Assembly: GCF_020551945.1 (NCBI RefSeq)
Contig: NZ_JAJBZH010000003.1
Location: 311,294 to 375,293 of the forward strand
Reading direction: 5' to 3'
From: Cellulosimicrobium marinum
GTDB taxonomy: Bacteria > Actinomycetota > Actinomycetes > Actinomycetales > Cellulomonadaceae
Length of the DNA stretch: 64,000 nucleotides
The notes beneath the pieces were generated by a model. That model did no database searches. It was not told where the DNA came from and was given only the letters and a program-made list of their open reading frames with translations. Positions within the stretch are counted from its first letter, which is position 1; the number at the start of each line of letters is the position of its first letter. This document shows, in pieces, positions 40,510-62,474 of this stretch. Both the position numbers and the translations under genes were made by a program.

Positions 40510-43023
40510 ATGAACCAGCACCTGCGACGCACCGCGACGCACCTCGCCGACGGCCGCGACCTCGTCTACTTCGACGACTCCCCCGAGTTCGTCTCCGGCG
40601 AGCGCACCCGGCGCCTCCACGACCCGCGCCCGCTGCCGGACCGCTACGCCCCGGTCCCGGGGCCGGACGGCGAGCCCCATCCGTACACGGGCCCGGAGAT
40701 GCGCCTCGACCCGCTCACGGGCGACTGGGTGCCGATGGCCGCGCACCGCATGAACCGCACCTTCCTGCCCGCCGCGGACTCGTGCCCGCTGTGCCCGGCA
40801 CGTCCCGGCAGCGCGTACTCCGACGGCGAGGTCCCCGACACCGACTACGACGTCGTCGTGTTCGAGAACCGCTTCCCGTCGCTCCAGCGTGTCCCGGGGA
40901 TCGGCGACGAGCGCGTCCAGGACGCGCCGCTGCAGGTCCACGGGCCGGCCGCGGGGCGCTGCGAGGTCGTGTGCTTCTCCAGCGACCACACCACGTCGTT
41001 CGGGGCGCTGCCCCCGCAGCGCGTCCGCACCATCATCGACGCCTGGGCGGACCGCACGGCCGCGCTCGGCGAGGTGCCCGGCGTCGAGCAGGTGTTCTGC
41101 TTCGAGAACCGGGGCCAGGAGATCGGCGTCACCCTGCACCACCCGCACGGGCAGATCTACGGCTACCCGTACGTCACGCCGCGCACGCGCCAGATGCTCG
41201 CCCAGGCGCGGGCGCACCACGAGCGCACGGGGCGCAACCTGCTGCGCGACCTCCTCGACTCCGAGCTCGCGGACGGGCGCCGGGTGGTGCTGGAGACGGA
41301 GCACTGGGTGGCGTACGTGCCGTACGCGGCGCGCTGGCCCGTCGAGGTGCACCTCGCGCCGCGCCGCGACGTCCCCGACCTGCCTGCGCTCACGGACGCC
41401 GAGCGGGACGACCTCGCCACGACCTATCTCGAGCTGCTGCGCCGCCTCGACCGGTTCTTCGAGACGGCCGACGGCGACCCCATCCCCCTGCCGTACATCG
41501 CGGCGTGGCACCAGGCGCCCGCGCACCAGGGCCGCTCCGTCGCGGACGGAGGCACGGACGACGTCACGCTGGCACGCCTGCACCTGCAGGTGTTCTCCGT
41601 GCTCCGCGCCCCGGGCAAGCTCAAGTACCTCGCGGGGTCCGAGTCGGGGATGGGCGCCTGGATCAGCGACACGACGCCGGAGCGCGTCGCAGCCCGCCTC
41701 CAGGAGCTCGCCCCCGCCGGGACGGCGCGGGGCTGGGTGCCCGCGTGGACGCCCGAGGAGGGCGCCCGCCGTGCGCGGGCGGTGTTCGCCGAGGCGTTCG
41801 GCGGCGTGTCCGACGCCGGTGCCGCGGCAGGGTCCGGCGAAGGCGCGCCCCGCGTGTGGAGCGCACCGGGCCGGGTCAACCTCATCGGCGAGCACACGGA
41901 CTACAACGCGGGCCTGTGCCTTCCGGTCGCGCTGCCGCACCGCACGTACGTGGCGCTGCGGCCCCGCACGGACGGCGTCGTGCGGCTCGTATCCGCGCAG
42001 GCGCTCGGCGAGGTGTGGGAGGCGCGGCTCGACGACGTCGCCCCCGGCACGGTCGCGGGCTGGGGCACGTACGCGGCGGGTGTCGCGTGGGCGCTGCGCG
42101 AGCACCTCGCGGCGACCGGGGACGACGCCGAGCGCGTCCCGGGGTTCGACGCGGCGGTGGACTCGTGCGTCCCGTTCGGCGCGGGGCTGTCCTCGTCGGC
42201 GGCGCTGGAGTGCGCCGTCGCGGTCGCGCTCGACGACGTCGCAGGCCTCGGCCTCTCCGCGACCGACACCGGCCGCGCGACCCTCGCCGCGGTGTGCGTG
42301 CGGGCGGAGAACGAGGTCGCGGGCGCGCCGACCGGCGGCATGGACCAGTCCGCCGCGCTGCGGGCCACGCTCGGCCACGCCCTGCTGCTCGACTGCCGGC
42401 TCGGCCTCGACCCCGACGACTCGGCCGAGCAGGAGCCGTTCGACCTCGCGGCCGCGGGGCTCGCCGTCCTCGTCATGGACACCCGGGCGGAGCACCGCCT
42501 CGTGGACGGCCAGTACGCGCAGCGCCGGGACACCTGCGAGGCCGCGGCCCTGACCCTCGGTCTCGCGCACCTGCGCGAGCTCGCGGACGCCGTCGCCACG
42601 TCCGACGACCCGACCGGCACCCTCGACGTGGCGCTCGACAAGCTGCCCGACGACGTCTCCCGCCGCCGGGTGCGCCACGTCGTCACGGAGATCGGCCGGG
42701 TCCGCGACCTCGTCGCGCTCCTGCAGGACGGCCGCGTGACGGAGGTCGGCCCGCTCCTCACCGCGTCCCACGCGTCGCTGCGCGACGACTACGAGGTGTC
42801 GAGCGTCGAGCTCGACGTCGCCGTGGACGCCGCCCGCGTCGCCGGCGCGCTCGGCGCCCGCATGACGGGTGGCGGTTTCGGCGGCTCGGCCATCGCCCTC
42901 GTCCCCGCCGACCGCGCCGAGGCCGTGGCCGATGCGGTCCGCACCGCGTTCGAGCGCGAGGGCTTCGGCGCCCCCGGCTTCCTCCTCGCCACTCCCTCCG
43001 CCGCGGCCGGCCCGACCGCCTGA
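40510..43023 (+). CDS. galTK: GalT-GalK fusion: galactose-1-phosphate uridylyltransferase plus galactokinase
   Basis: One uninterrupted 837-codon frame encodes two Leloir enzymes. Residues about 1-405 are GalT, with zinc-site CPLCP and the catalytic HHPHGQIYGYPY near 210. Residues about 412-837 are galactokinase: WSAPGRVNLIGEHTDYN near 450, VPFGAGLSSSAALECAV near 560 (GHMP ATP loop) and MTGGGFGGSAIALV near 787. Both parts look complete, and the junction (PAGTARGWVPAWTPEEGARR) lacks a stop codon. An internal GTG at 41737 in the same frame could start GalK alone, but its upstream sequence is a poor ribosome site. In most actinobacteria galT and galK are separate adjacent genes. galE is not in the window. 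Confidence 0.92.
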   Translation: MNQHLRRTATHLADGRDLVYFDDSPEFVSGERTRRLHDPRPLPDRYAPVPGPDGEPHPYTGPEMRLDPLTGDWVPMAAHRMNRTFLPAADSCPLCPARPGSAYSDGEVPDTDYDVVVFENRFPSLQRVPGIGDERVQDAPLQVHGPAAGRCEVVCFSSDHTTSFGALPPQRVRTIIDAWADRTAALGEVPGVEQVFCFENRGQEIGVTLHHPHGQIYGYPYVTPRTRQMLAQARAHHERTGRNLLRDLLDSELADGRRVVLETEHWVAYVPYAARWPVEVHLAPRRDVPDLPALTDAERDDLATTYLELLRRLDRFFETADGDPIPLPYIAAWHQAPAHQGRSVADGGTDDVTLARLHLQVFSVLRAPGKLKYLAGSESGMGAWISDTTPERVAARLQELAPAGTARGWVPAWTPEEGARRARAVFAEAFGGVSDAGAAAGSGEGAPRVWSAPGRVNLIGEHTDYNAGLCLPVALPHRTYVALRPRTDGVVRLVSAQALGEVWEARLDDVAPGTVAGWGTYAAGVAWALREHLAATGDDAERVPGFDAAVDSCVPFGAGLSSSAALECAVAVALDDVAGLGLSATDTGRATLAAVCVRAENEVAGAPTGGMDQSAALRATLGHALLLDCRLGLDPDDSAEQEPFDLAAAGLAVLVMDTRAEHRLVDGQYAQRRDTCEAAALTLGLAHLRELADAVATSDDPTGTLDVALDKLPDDVSRRRVRHVVTEIGRVRDLVALLQDGRVTEVGPLLTASHASLRDDYEVSSVELDVAVDAARVAGALGARMTGGGFGGSAIALVPADRAEAVADAVRTAFEREGFGAPGFLLATPSAAAGPTA

Positions 43024-43122
43024 CCGAACGGCCCGACCAGGTCCGCGGAGAGTCGGAGAGCGAAGGACCGCCGTCCGACCGAGGTGGGCGGCAAGGCCGG
43101 GGGTGCGAACTACCGCCCGGAA

Positions 43123-43229
43123 GGCGGGCGGAGGGGCGGCCGTGCCGGGTCGTGGCGGGTCTGGCGGGAGCGACGCGAGGAACGAGCGGCGCGGATGGCA
43201 GACCCGGCGCGGCCGCCCCTCCGCCCACC
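43123..43229. repeat. Variable-stem/conserved-core element, copy 1
   Basis: The core (43147-43205, 59 bp) starts GGGTCGTGGCGGGTCTGGCG and ends GGATGG-CA-GACCC. It is flanked by arms 43123-43146 and 43206-43229 that pair at 22 of 24 positions, and the core contains an inner hairpin with a GAGGAACGA loop. The core is nearly identical to copies at 45129 and 61051, while the arms are unrelated. It lies between the stop codons of convergent galTK and xth. Confidence 0.9.
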
Positions 43230-43271
43230 GGACCGCACCGACCCGACGACCGCGACCGGACCCGCCCGACG

Positions 43272-44075
43272 TCAGAGGTCGTACGTCACGACGAGCGGCG
43301 CGTGGTCGCTCCAGCGCTCGGCGTGCGACGGCGCCCGGTCGACCTCGACCTTCACCGCGTGCTCCGCGAGCGCGGGGGTCGCGAGCTGGTAGTCGATGCG
43401 CCACCCGGAGTCGTTGTCGAACGCGCGTCCGCGCCAGGACCACCAGGTGAACGGGCCGGGGCCGTCGCCGCCGTGGACGCGTCCGAGGTCGACGAGGCCG
43501 ACGTCGTCGAGCCACGTGTCGACGTACGCACGTTCCTCGGGGAGGAACCCGGCGCTCTTGAGGTTGCCCTTCCAGTTCTTGATGTCGGCGTTCGTGTGCG
43601 CGATGTTGAGGTCGCCGGCGAGGACGGCGCGGCGTCCGTCGGTGGTGAGCTCGCGCAGGCGTGCGGTGACCTTCTCCAGGTAGGCGTACTTGGCGACCAT
43701 GGTCTCGGGCTGGGCGACGGTGCCGGAGTGGATGTAGGCGGAGACGACGGTGACGGTCCCGCCGTCGGGCAGCTCGACGTCGGCCTCGACCCAGCGGCCG
43801 GTGTCGACGGGCGGTTCGGGTTCGCCCGCTCCGAGGCCGACCCGCACGGCGGTCAGGGGCAGGCGGGAGGCGACGGCGACGCCGGCGCGGCCCTTGAGGT
43901 CGCACGCCTGGTGGGCGACGTGCCACCCGTCGAGGAGGTCGCGCGCGACGGTGTCGGGTGCGCGGACCTCCTGCAGCAGCAGGACGTCGGGGGTGCGGTC
44001 GGCGATCCAGGTGTCCATCCCTCGGCGGACGGCGGCGCGGATGCCGTTGACGTTGGCGGTGGCGATGGTCAGCAC
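43272..44075 (-). CDS. xth: Exodeoxyribonuclease III / AP endonuclease
   Basis: A 267-residue member of the exonuclease-endonuclease-phosphatase family that cleaves at abasic sites and trims 3' ends. Catalytic motifs are intact: IATANVNGIRAA (Asn), LLLQEVRA (Glu metal ligand), VSAYIHSG (Tyr), AGDLNIAHTNADIKNWKGN (Asp/Asn), RIDYQLATP and WSDHAPLVV (Asp-His). The length is normal. GTG at 44075 is the likely start. It is convergent with galTK across repeat copy 1 and downstream of folD on the same strand with an 80-bp gap. Confidence 0.95.
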   Translation of the reverse strand: MLTIATANVNGIRAAVRRGMDTWIADRTPDVLLLQEVRAPDTVARDLLDGWHVAHQACDLKGRAGVAVASRLPLTAVRVGLGAGEPEPPVDTGRWVEADVELPDGGTVTVVSAYIHSGTVAQPETMVAKYAYLEKVTARLRELTTDGRRAVLAGDLNIAHTNADIKNWKGNLKSAGFLPEERAYVDTWLDDVGLVDLGRVHGGDGPGPFTWWSWRGRAFDNDSGWRIDYQLATPALAEHAVKVEVDRAPSHAERWSDHAPLVVTYDL

Positions 44076-44155: not shown

Positions 44156-45037
44156 TCAGGCGAAGGCGCGCTCGGCGGTGTCGACGACGTTGGCGAGGAG
44201 CATCGCGCGGGTCATGGGGCCGACACCGCCCGGGTTGGGCGAGAGCCACCCGGCGACCTCGGCGACGCCGGGGTCGACGTCGCCGCGCAGGCGCGCCTTG
44301 CCGGTCTCGGGCTCGACGACGCGGCTGACGCCGACGTCGAGCACGACGGCGCCGCGCTTGACGTGCGCGGGCTTGACGAACCCGGCGACGCCGGCGGCGG
44401 CGATGACGACGTCGGCGCCCTGCAGGTGGGCGACGACGTCGCGCGTGCCGGTGTGGGTGAGGGTGACGGTCGCGTTGATCTCGCGGCGGGTGAGGAGGAG
44501 GCCGATGGAGCGCCCGACGGTGGTGCCGCGCCCGACGACGACGACGTCCTTGCCGGCCAGCTCGATGCCGTGGCGGCGCACGAGCTCGATGATGCCCGCG
44601 GGGGTGCAGGGCAGGGGCGAGGTGACGGGTTCGTTGACGCGCAGCACGAGGCGCCCGAGGTTCGTGGGGTGGAGGCCGTCGGCGTCCTTGTCGGGGTCGA
44701 TCCGCTCGAGCACGGCGTTGGTGTCGACGCCCTTCGGCAGGGGGAGCTGCACGATGTACCCGGTGCACGCCGGGTCGGCGTTGAGCCGGTCGATCGCGGC
44801 CTCGACGTCGGCCTGCGTCGCGTCGGCGGGAAGGTCCTCACGGATGGACGCGATGCCGACCTCGGCGCAGTCGCGGTGCTTGCCCGCGACGTACGAGACG
44901 GAGCCGGGGTCCTCGCCCACGAGCACGGTCCCGAGGCCGGGCACGACCCCCCGGTCCCGCAGCGCGGCGACGCGGGACCTGAGCTCGGACTTGATGGTGG
45001 CGGCGGTGGCCTTGCCGTCGAGGATCTGTGCGGTCAT
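44156..45037 (-). CDS. folD: Bifunctional methylenetetrahydrofolate dehydrogenase/cyclohydrolase
   Basis: A 293-residue FolD enzyme interconverting 5,10-methylene-THF, methenyl-THF and 10-formyl-THF. [14 protein letters not shown] carries the catalytic lysine, [13 protein letters not shown] and [11 protein letters not shown] are signatures, [18 protein letters not shown] is the NADP loop, and [14 protein letters not shown] ends the active site. The canonical YxxxK reads [16 protein letters not shown] ribosome site lies 5 nt before the ATG at 45037. glyA lies upstream on the same strand, separated by 209 bp holding repeat copy 2, so it may share the ZTP-controlled transcript. Confidence 0.96.
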
Positions 45038-45128: not shown

Positions 45129-45231
45129 CCGGGGTCGGGCGTCTCGTCGCGGGTCGTGGCGGGTCTGGCGGGAGCACCGCGAGGAACGAGCGGTGCGGAT
45201 GGTCGACCCGCGACGAGACGCCCGTCCCCGG
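45129..45231. repeat. Variable-stem/conserved-core element, copy 2
   Basis: The core (45151-45209) matches copy 1 at 53 of 59 positions by eye. Arms 45129-45150 and 45210-45231 pair at 21 of 22 positions but share no sequence with the other copies. The inner hairpin is GCACCGC/GCGGTGC with a GAGGAACGA loop. The element sits 15 bp after the glyA stop and before folD, so both genes read through it on the minus strand if they form an operon. Confidence 0.9.
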
Positions 45232-45246: not shown

Positions 45247-46548
45247 CTACTGCTGCAGGTCCGGGTACAGCGGGAAGTCGGCCGTGAGCGTCGCGACGCG
45301 TCCGCGCAGCGCCTCGGCGTCGGCCGCGCTGCCCTCGCGCAGGGCGGTGGCGATGATCTCGGCGACCTCGGTGAACTCGGCGTCGCCGAACCCGCGGGTC
45401 GCGAGGGCGGGCGTGCCGATGCGCAGGCCGGACGTGACGCGCGGGGGGCGCGGGTCGAACGGCACGGCGTTGCGGTTCACGGTGATGCCGACCTCGTGGA
45501 GGAGGTCCTCGGCCTGCTGGCCGTCGAGCGCGCTGTGGCGCAGGTCGACGAGCACGAGGTGCACGTCGGTGCCGCCGGTGAGGACGGAGACGCCGGCCTG
45601 CGCGACGTCGGGCTGGGCGAGGCGGTCGGCGATGATGCTGGCGCCGCGCAGGGTGCGCTCCTGGCGGTCCTTGAAGTCGTCGGACGCGGCGACCTTGAAC
45701 GACACGGCCTTGGCGGCGACGACGTGCATGAGCGGGCCGCCCTGCTGGCCGGGGAACACGGCGGAGTCGATCTTCTTGGCGTACTCCTCCTTGCTGAGGA
45801 TGAAGCCGGAGCGGGGGCCGCCGATCGTCTTGTGGACGGTCGAGGAGACGACGTCGGCGTAGGGCACCGGGGAGGGGTGCAGGCCGGCGGCGACGAGGCC
45901 GGCGAAGTGCGCCATGTCGACCCAGAGCTTGGCGCCGACCTCGTCCGCGATCTCGCGGAACGCCGCGAAGTCGAGGTGGCGGGGGTAGGCGGACCAGCCG
46001 CCGATGATGACGTCGGGGCGGGTCTCGAGGGCCTGCTTGCGGACCTCGTCCATCTCGACGCGGTAGGACTGCGGGTCGACGCCGTACGCGGAGACGTCGT
46101 AGAGCTTGCCGGAGAAGTTGATCTTCATGCCGTGCGTGAGGTGGCCGCCGTGGGCGAGCTCGAGGCCGAGGATCTTGTCGCCCTTGTTGATGAGGGCGTG
46201 CAGGACGGCGGCGTTCGCCTGGGCGCCGGAGTGGGGCTGGACGTTGACGTGCTCGGCCCCGAAGAGCTCCTTGGCGCGGGAGATGGCGAGGTTCTCGGCG
46301 ATGTCGACCTGTTCGCAGCCGCCGTAGTAGCGGCGACCGGGGTAGCCCTCGGCGTACTTGTTGGTAAGGACGCTGCCCTGGGCCTGCAGGACGGCGCGGG
46401 GGACGAAGTTCTCCGACGCGATCATCTCGAGGGTGTCGCGCTGGCGGGCGAGCTCCCCGTCGAGGACGGCGGCGATCTCGGGGTCGAGCTCGGCGAGCGG
46501 GGCGTCGAGGACGTTCTGTGCGGGGCGGTGTACGGGCTGGGCGCTCAT
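45247..46548 (-). CDS. glyA: Serine hydroxymethyltransferase
   Basis: A 433-residue PLP enzyme converting serine and THF to glycine and methylene-THF. [50 protein letters not shown] and [19 protein letters not shown] (PLP lysine in TVHKT) are all present; length is normal. ATG at 46548 has GAGGAG about 6 nt upstream. A ZTP riboswitch fills the leader. It supplies one-carbon units with folD (downstream) and complements purU across the GNAT gene. Confidence 0.97.
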
Positions 46549-46643: not shown

Positions 46644-46752
46644 GGTGACCCGGGGCCCAGGCGAACGACCCGTCGTCTGCACAGCTCGTCGCTCCCCGGT
46701 GGTGATCCACCCTGCCCGGTCCGTGGAGGACGGGCGCGCCAGTCGCGACGGC
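46644..46752 (-). promoter_or_regulatory. ZTP (pfl) riboswitch in the glyA leader
   Basis: Read on the minus strand, GTCGCGACTGGCG (from about 46749) matches the conserved 5' half of the ZTP aptamer, ACCACCGGGGAGCGAC (about 46703-46688) the middle segment, and CGCCTGGGCCCCGG (about 46662-46649) the conserved 3' pseudoknot element. ZTP riboswitches sense the purine intermediate ZMP/ZTP and commonly precede glyA and folD (established). About 100 nt separate the aptamer from the glyA start; I see no T-run terminator, so control of translation or Rho access is likely. Confidence 0.85.
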
Positions 46753-46756
46753 CTCG

Positions 46757-60790: not shown

Positions 60791-60941
60791 TCACGTGCTC
60801 GGGCTGCCGCGCCGTCACCGTGACCTCTCGGCTCGCCTTCTCGCGCGCGGCTCGACGCCCTTCGCACGTCACCCGCCACGCCCGGTACGACGTCACCTCG
60901 GTCGGCGCTCGCCACGGGGCTTGCCGTCCCTGGGACGCGCA

Positions 60942-61058
60942 CGAGGCGACCGGACCGGGAACGGGGTCCGCGAGGCGACGGCACCAGGAGCGGGGTCCAC
61001 GAGGCGACCGCACCAGGAGCGGGGTCCACGAGGCGACGGGCACCGGGAGCGGGGTCGG
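60942..61058. repeat. 29-bp tandem repeat, four units, abutting element copy 3
   Basis: Four units start with CGAGGCGAC at 60942, 60971, 61000 and 61029; units two and three differ at a single base, the outer units are more diverged. Typical unit: CGAGGCGACGGCACCAGGAG followed by CGGGGTCCA. There are no spacers between units, so this is a minisatellite rather than a CRISPR array. The last unit runs into the left arm of the copy 3 hairpin. Confidence 0.88.
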
Positions 61059-61155
61059 GGTGGACGACGGCGCGGGTCGTGGCGGGTCTGGCGGGAGCGC
61101 CGCGAGGGACGAGCGGTGCGGATGGGAGACCCGCGCCGTCGTCCACCCCGGCCCC
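61051..61155. repeat. Variable-stem/conserved-core element, copy 3
   Basis: The core (61074-61132) differs from copy 2 at only five positions by eye. Arms 61051-61073 and 61133-61155 pair at 22 of 23 positions and are unrelated to the arms of copies 1 and 2. The inner hairpin GCGCCGC/GCGGTGC keeps pairing through a G-T wobble and has the loop GAGGGACGA. It lies about 100 bp after the icd stop. Confidence 0.9.
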
Positions 61156-61202
61156 GCGGAGGCGACCCCGACCCCGCCACGCGCGCACCGCCCGGGAGAC
61201 GC

Positions 61203-61256: not shown

Positions 61257-62474
61257 TCAGCCCAGGCGCGCCTTGAGGTTCTCGTCGAGGGCCGCGAGGA
61301 AGTCCTCGGTCGTCAGCCACTCCTGCTCCGGGCCGATGAGGAGCGCGAGGTCCTTCGTCATCTTGCCGGACTCGACCGTCTTCACGACGACGTCCTCGAG
61401 GGTCTGCGCGAACTCGGTGACCTCGGGCGTGCCGTCGAGCTTGCCGCGGTGCATGAGGCCGCGGGTCCAGGCGAAGATCGACGCGATGGGGTTGGTCGAC
61501 GTCGGCTTGCCCTGCTGGTGCTGGCGGTAGTGGCGCGTGACGGTGCCGTGCGCGGCCTCGGCCTCGACGGTCTGGCCGTCGGGCGTCATGAGGACGGACG
61601 TCATGAGGCCGAGCGAGCCGAAGCCCTGCGCGACGGTGTCGGACTGGACGTCGCCGTCGTAGTTCTTGCAGGCCCAGACGTAGCCGCCCTCCCACTTCAT
61701 GGCCGAGGCGACCATGTCGTCGATGAGGCGGTGCTCGTAGGTGAGGCCGGCGGCCTCGAACTGGTCCTTGAACTCGGCGTCGAAGACCTCCTGGAACAGG
61801 TCCTTGAACTGGCCGTCGTAGGCCTTGAGGATCGTGTTCTTCGTGGAGAGGTAGACGGGGTAGCTCCGCTGCAGGCCGTAGGCGAACGAGGCGCGCGCGA
61901 AGTCGCGGATCGACTCGTTGAAGTTGTACATGCCCATCGCGACGCCGCCCTCCTCGGGCATGGTCACGACCTCGAACGTCTGCGGCTCGGAGCCGTCGGC
62001 CGGCTCGAACGACATCGTGATCTTCCCGGGGCCGGGGACCTTGAAGTTCGTCGACTTGTACTGGTCGCCGTGGGCGTGGCGGCCGATGATGATCGGCTTG
62101 TTCCAGCCCGGCACGAGGCGCGGGATGTTGGAGATGATGATCGGCTCGCGGAAGACGACGCCGCCGAGGATGTTGCGGATGGTCCCGTTCGGGGAGACCC
62201 ACATCTTCTTGAGGCCGAACTCCTCGACGCGCGCCTCGTCGGGCGTGATCGTCGCGCACTTGACGCCGACGTTGTACTGCTTGATCGCGTGGGCCGCGTC
62301 GACCGTGACCTGGTCGTCGGTGGCGTCGCGGTTCTGGATCGACAGGTCGTAGTACTTGAGGTCGACGTCGAGGTACGGGTGGATGAGGCGGTCCTTGATG
62401 AACTGCCAGATGATGCGCGTCATCTCGTCGCCGTCGAGCTCGACGACCGGGTTGACGACCTTGATCTTGCCCAT
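61257..62474 (-). CDS. icd: NADP-dependent isocitrate dehydrogenase (eukaryote-like, type II)
   Basis: A 405-residue homodimeric-type isocitrate dehydrogenase that makes 2-oxoglutarate and [25 protein letters not shown] is the family start, [20 protein letters not shown] carries substrate Ser/Asn/Arg, [20 protein letters not shown] the catalytic Lys, [20 protein letters not shown] and [10 protein letters not shown] the Asp and NADP region, and [14 protein letters not shown] the cofactor site. The ATG at 62474 fits the family; the frame is open further upstream but unrelated. A GACGTC-centred palindrome lies about 130 bp upstream. mdh follows downstream. Confidence 0.97.

Follow-up and report, generated by a model that had tools for sequence, protein, structure and literature searches.

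REP sequences have stems that are themselves conserved, and they are mobilised by Y1 transposases. Most MITE-type repeats are recognised by conserved terminal inverted repeats and by target-site duplications (PMC2229807). The Rickettsia palindromic elements (RPEs) are palindromes of ~100-150 bp that occur both between genes and in frame within unrelated genes, and whose mobilising enzyme is unknown (PMC10969869, PMC2229807); they have inverted repeats at their termini (PMC2229807) and code for a conserved peptide (PMC10969869). Conserved ends are in general the feature by which known small bacterial repeats are recognised; the element described here reverses that design, with free stems and a fixed unpaired core.

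Three copies lie in the window, which is the whole 64,000-nucleotide stretch of Cellulosimicrobium marinum DNA analysed here, within contig 8 of the 3.83-Mb own genome (G000). They had been noticed in an earlier note on this sequence, and a re-reading of the sequence confirmed all three at the places given there; the string GGGTCNNGGCGGGTCTGGCGGGAGC has exactly three occurrences in the window, against 0.01 expected by chance. The copies and their neighbours are as follows.

43126..43226, + strand: element copy 1, with a 24-bp stem around the core (match of the covariance model R1 in the own genome, G000:C8:354426-354512)
43153..43170, + strand: conserved 5' internal-loop strand of copy 1, TGGCGGGTCTGGCGGGAG (position-wise conservation over 247 elements)
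43170..43192, + strand: inner hairpin P2 of copy 1, a variable 7-bp stem with an A.G mismatch
43177-43185, + strand: closing loop of P2 in copy 1, GAGGAACGA
43193..43198, + strand: conserved 3' internal-loop strand of copy 1, GGATGG
45129..45231, + strand: element copy 2, with a 26-bp stem; the site is empty in the 15 other genomes compared
45157..45202, + strand: core of copy 2, TGGCGGGTCTGGCGGGAG / P2 GCACCGC-GAGGAACGA-GCGGTGC / GGATGG
61049..61157, + strand: element copy 3, with a 28-bp stem; the site is also filled in the relatives G003 and G010
61080..61125, + strand: core of copy 3, TGGCGGGTCTGGCGGGAG / P2 GCGCCGC-GAGGGACGA-GCGGTGC / GGATGG
43272..44075, - strand: xth, exodeoxyribonuclease III, whose 3' end adjoins copy 1 (TIGR00633, 179 bits, above cut-off)
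45247..46548, - strand: glyA, serine hydroxymethyltransferase, whose 3' end adjoins copy 2 (NF000586)
44156..45037, - strand: folD, downstream of glyA past copy 2 (NF010789)
61257..62474, - strand: icd, NADP isocitrate dehydrogenase, whose 3' end is near copy 3 (NF006156)

The placement of all three copies immediately 3' of metabolic genes, as first described, stands; to this can be added their orientation, antisense in each case to the gene concerned (xth, glyA or icd). Copy 1 occupies the gap between xth and a convergent galT-galK-like ORF, copy 2 the glyA-folD gap, where it is antisense to both genes, and copy 3 the region between icd and malate dehydrogenase, with a separate terminator-like hairpin between the icd stop codon and the element. 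Folding z-scores of the three copies range from -6.7 to -7.8, and a stem of at least 14 bp is found in just two of the 29 other intergenic gaps of the window (gaps >30 nt). Other features of these neighbourhoods are a single 837-aa ORF (40510-43023, + strand), which by eye from its translation is a galactose-1-phosphate uridylyltransferase-galactokinase fusion, a ZMP/ZTP riboswitch directly upstream of glyA (46648-46756, - strand; Rfam RF01750, 49.2 bits), and three tandem 29-bp repeats (CACGAGGCGACCG...GGGGTC) at 60940-61039, beside copy 3.

Each element consists, in order, of a P1 arm, a G, TGGCGGGTCTGGCGGGAG, the 5' strand of P2, GAGGRACGA, the 3' strand of P2, GGATGG, two bases (usually TA) and the second P1 arm. 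P1 is a variable stem of 16-40 bp, and P2 is a variable stem of 3-7 bp. The core had been described as a continuous conserved stretch of 59 bp; the inner stem is in fact freely variable, and what is conserved is a set of 33 unpaired bases in three pieces, namely internal-loop strands of 18 nt and 6 nt and the 9-nt hairpin loop. Over 247 elements these unpaired positions are 91-100% conserved, with the exception of loop-strand positions 4 and 8 and hairpin-loop position 5, and the stems have no fixed sequence. The outer arms are unrelated from copy to copy, and even members of a subfamily, which have ~15 bp of inner arm in common, carry outer arms that are unrelated yet paired. One such group, the P1 GAA/GA internal-loop subfamily (GAAGGGC...GCCCGAG; L235, L238, L030, L230 and Actinomyces copies), predominates in Actinomyces and, together with a near variant, accounts for every one of the best-supported sense-oriented in-gene copies in the own genome. 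Conservation of four G tracts in the 247 elements is compatible with the G-quadruplex suggested earlier, but positions with C, T and A are equally conserved, which leaves the suggestion without specific support.

The pairing of the stems is well supported by covariation. In an unedited, gap-poor alignment of 30 own-genome copies, changes on both sides are seen in 22 of the 26 stem pairs, which bears out the earlier proposal of a structured element with a generic stem and a constrained core. Of the cells in this alignment 93.6% are paired; column shuffles give 71.6% and slid controls 36-48%, and none of 500 shuffles matched the real alignment on any of five measures. A cross-genus alignment of 59 distinct sequences has double changes in 25 of the 26 pairs and a covariation score of 0.719, compared with 0.163 when shuffled. 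Compensatory helix changes are thus combined with conserved loops, as in structured RNA.

The three copies of the window are part of a set of about 85 in the whole genome. A BLAST search with copy 1 finds 45 places, and the covariance model with flanks that the earlier note had called for (R1) finds 86 matches at E<=0.1, with 83 hairpin copies from a motif finder, so that the many hairpin-flanked copies per genome predicted there do occur. The element is present in 17 of 17 genomes of the genus Cellulosimicrobium, with 12 to 74 matches per genus genome, and the other relatives searched gave matches in two more genera of the family and in two genomes elsewhere in the order. There are 14 and 40 matches in two Luteimicrobium genomes and 2 to 10 in each of seven Actinomyces genomes. 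A sample of the order gave matches in at least 18 of 396 genomes, at least nine of 110 genera and at least five families, counts that are lower bounds since ~11 candidates were scored per genome. The distribution across the order is patchy, and the counted copies are partly kin by descent, so that the counts are not independent.

Many copies in several species have an equal score (95.3 bits, 83 nt); the 20 of these that were fetched are identical over the element, and they also have in common ~50-70 bp of flanking sequence and a neighbouring tandem array of a 21-22 nt unit. Identical copies are found both within and between species. A second dispersed repeat of the genus, often beside the element (right flanks of L089-L108, FabG4 linkers of L356-L363, and L002, L004 and L020), is a tandem array whose 21-22 nt unit resembles CGACCAGGGTTCTACCTCGGC; such arrays also lie in frame within genes, where they encode DQGSTSA repeats. 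Contigs of the own genome end inside or next to a copy at C2:68141, C5:3, C9:463730 and C12:170000, and poly-G/N gaps adjoin other copies (with N runs in L222 and L236); the element therefore probably breaks assemblies and is undercounted. A phage or plasmid origin was rejected, with no match in 50,697 phage records, 72,556 plasmid records or, in a pattern search, IMG/VR.

Orthologous sites differ widely in whether they are filled. The glyA site is filled in 1 of 16 genomes (the own genome only), the xth site in 2 of 17 and the icd site in 3 of 17, where the arms in G003 and G010 differ yet pair; the element also occupies the nrdE-nrdF site, in 6 of 16 genus genomes and in three further genera. 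This turnover of presence and absence indicates that the element is mobile. Fetched loci of close strains gave no usable clean filled/empty pairs, the matches being mostly tandem self-matches. Head-to-tail duplications of part or all of an element, with a period of 57-126 nt (L007, L025, L236, L320, L338), suggest polymerase slippage at the hairpin. The C. cellulans group has a further long hairpin, GCCGAACACGACATGAGGGTCG / CGACCCTCATGTCGTGTTCGGC, at its xth site (L283, L285-L287, L289, L292, L293).

At least ten copies lie in frame within genes, those for DnaE2, PcrA, FabG4 and ModBC among them, and use several reading frames and both orientations. The linker of a FabG4-like 3-oxoacyl-ACP reductase contains an intact in-frame copy in the own genome and a decayed one in G003, and is element-free in 13 others; orthologs that lack the element lack both arms as well. 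A DnaE2-like polymerase has three copies within its open frame, with a coding score that is strongly positive on both sides and negative inside, and its NCBIfam and Pfam matches are split around the copies. In this DnaE2-like gene (L240:403-4362), two inverted copies make up part of a ~180-aa insert, and a third is near the C-terminal HHH region. Other hosts include PcrA and an NHL/thioredoxin-like protein, both identified by eye, and a ModB-ModC fusion. Antisense copies outnumber sense copies within genes by 19:6 in automatic calls, which may include some falsely extended genes; the core has no stop codon in any frame of its reverse strand, which may partly account for this excess.

Copies at old sites preserve their cores. 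Comparisons limited to intact copies show that orthologous copies in different genera differ at 0-4 of the 33 core bases, most of these pairs having 3 to 9 compensatory double changes in P1, whereas at a distance of 35-100 nt identity is close to that of shuffled DNA; in the same pairs, the host genes are 67-80% identical at third codon positions. The PcrA copies of Cellulosimicrobium and Luteimicrobium have no differences in 33 core bases and 1 to 4 compensatory changes in P1, with flanks 35-100 nt away that are 55-62% identical (48-57% when shuffled) and third codon positions that are 67-68% identical. At nrdE-nrdF, the arms are almost wholly different across genera yet paired, and the core differs by 0-4 bases. 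A GGGCCT core variant common to the six genus nrdEF copies is found in just 20 of 83 own copies, and its locus-specificity argues for vertical descent; the keeping of such variants is not expected from simple re-insertion or genome-wide homogenisation. Cores kept across genera beside unalignable flanks indicate that the core is constrained in place at old sites.

The orientation of the element follows a rule, judged from gene calls by a home-made codon model for which the window and own-genome loci were the training set. Where genes converge, the element is closer to the one it is antisense to (42:8, p about 1e-6), and in tandem gaps antisense copies outnumber sense copies by 49 to 29. Divergent promoter gaps are nearly free of copies (5), and the median distance from stop codons is about 80 nt. 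There are nine genuine close inverted pairs, all (-,+) and pointing away from each other, and none is (+,-), two "+-" entries in the list of close pairs being spurious motif matches. Stem mismatches on the forward strand are G.T in 44 cases and A.C in 16 (p=4e-4), and the ratio is 25:6 where the forward strand is antisense to the mRNA (16:5 in tandem gaps, 9:1 in genes). This excess indicates that the strand that folds is the forward strand of the element, and not the adjoining mRNA; transcription-linked deamination would bias mismatches the opposite way. Targeting by replication strand was rejected, as 40 copies counted by eye in the complete Luteimicrobium genome show no overall strand bias between its halves.

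The element may best be understood as a small non-autonomous mobile palindrome, in which the stems are generic and the unpaired core would be the part that counts. When single-stranded, its forward strand is predicted to fold into P1, an asymmetric G-rich internal loop, P2 and the GAGGRACGA loop, and a putative trans factor common to the carriers would bind this folded strand, both spreading the element and making intact copies worth keeping. We consider it rather probable that the element is mobile and structured with a core recognised in trans by such a factor. Recognition of single-stranded DNA during transposition would account for the spread and not for the constraint in place, and recognition of an antisense RNA would account for the constraint and the placement; we favour the two routes combined. 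Since most copies have their forward strand antisense to the neighbouring gene, the likeliest role in place would be that of a one-way signal on RNA that would otherwise enter the gene through its 3' end; it would be silent during transcription of the gene itself and would serve as a barrier or processing site against antisense read-through. An antisense-barrier role of this kind, on a predicted antisense RNA, is offered tentatively. The fullest version, in which the element would be a mobile, order-wide one-way signal on antisense RNA, with copies just past gene 3' ends, the fold facing read-through and selection keeping cores intact, is more doubtful. The orientation rule could stem from target choice, or from selection against the forward fold in mRNA, and not from an antisense function.

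It is also conceivable, though we think it rather unlikely, that the element is a purely selfish, RPE-like mobile palindrome with no function for its host or locus, its core being kept for a transposase and its positions at 3' ends and in linkers representing the insertions that survived. The turnover between genomes, the in-gene copies with the decayed FabG4 copy of G003, the near-absence from divergent promoter regions and the identical copies within and between species would all be expected of such an element. However, a dead insertion should decay, and the cross-genus copies keep 29-33 of 33 core bases beside flanks that can no longer be aligned; the orientation to the neighbouring gene and the (-,+) pairs would moreover require an extra rule.

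A structured RNA that works on the sense transcript of its neighbouring gene, from within the 3' UTR or the intercistronic mRNA, as a terminator, stabiliser or ligand-binding element would fit the proximity to stop codons, the positions between nrdE and nrdF and between glyA and folD, and the very stable fold. The mRNA would, however, hold the reverse complement of the core, and the G.T excess is on the other strand. A T-tract (at least 5 T in the 10 nt after the hairpin) is present in none of the measured own copies on either strand, nor did a separate scan detect one, and an intrinsic terminator was rejected on these grounds; some copies are within coding genes, and icd has its own hairpin ahead of the element. 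The related suggestion in the earlier note, an RNA 3' element with a generic stem and a binding core, agrees with the constraint, but as an ordinary 3' UTR element it is at odds with a fold that is mostly antisense to the adjoining mRNA and with the copies inside coding genes. A role on the sense transcript is therefore regarded as quite improbable.

The same note had also proposed a mobile palindrome whose targets are the loops of terminator hairpins already in place. The mobile part of this agrees with the turnover, but insertion of a core into pre-existing loops, with the target supplying the outer arms, now appears very unlikely. It would explain why members of a subfamily are alike in ~15 bp of inner arm only, and the plain hairpins predicted at empty sites are indeed present at some of them (at glyA in G013 and G005, at xth in G003, and at both xth and nrdEF in the C. 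cellulans group). The nrdE-nrdF gap is recognisable and element-free in eight genus genomes, and seven of these have a short hairpin, but its 9-12 bp arms are unlike those at the filled sites. Long stems are scarce in the other gaps of the window, the glyA-folD gap is mostly about 5-15 nt in relatives, the empty FabG4 orthologs are armless, and P1 changes pairwise at sites that stay filled. Equally hard to sustain is the view that the pairing of P1 and P2 is a mutational by-product, template switching perfecting palindromes so that covariation says nothing of function: the partial tandem copies of the 5' half with a 57-63 nt period (L007, L236) do look like slippage at a stalled hairpin, and P1 covariation could come partly from template-switch correction of quasi-palindromes and not from selection, but the conservation of the non-palindromic core and the one-strand G.T excess are left unexplained.

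A mobile structured element with a trans-recognised core, which we prefer to these alternatives, can be set against the described systems. The earlier note knew of no described family with this design, and none was found in Rfam or in the open-access literature, where no published description of this element family was met. At gathering cut-offs, no Rfam 15 family matches the element, the one match in the window being the ZTP riboswitch elsewhere; nothing was found in eight pieces of Actinomyces/Luteimicrobium DNA or, at E<=10, over 43100-43250, and a known RNA family was rejected. Predicted structured RNAs (candidate riboswitches and motif RNAs) resemble the element in their variable stems, conserved loops and strong covariation, but the element occurs tens of times in a genome, mostly in antisense orientation, both at the 3' ends of genes and within them. 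REP/BIME sequences are likewise dispersed, mostly intergenic 3' hairpins in high copy number. They differ in having conserved stems and a Y1 transposase, while the stems of the element vary freely and its core is conserved instead; Y1 (PF01797) was detected in none of 50 genomes, 28 of them carriers, and in 5 of 14 control genomes, and a REP/RAYT assignment was rejected. MITE-type repeats (ERIC, Correia/NEMIS, RUP, YPAL, CIR) are also small and non-autonomous, and their transcripts fold into long hairpins, but the ends of the element are its least conserved part, and no target-site duplication was seen in comparisons without clean filled/empty pairs.

The behaviour of the element appears nearest to that of the RPEs, as judged by their descriptions, since both are palindromes scattered through intergenic regions and also found in frame within unrelated protein genes. 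By the same descriptions it differs in that conservation is confined to the unpaired core, with stems unrelated from copy to copy, in belonging to Actinomycetales and not Rickettsia, in its antisense placement, and in its use of several frames and both orientations. With varying ends and a fixed unpaired centre, it would be a small mobile palindrome of a new sort, in no named family. This reversed design is seen in several families of one order, in intergenic positions as well as within important genes, and the enzyme or binding protein behind it is a concrete target. The set of elements is a large natural collection of compensatory mutations, comes with an annotation-ready covariance model, and allows a direct test of whether dispersed hairpins shield genes from antisense read-through.
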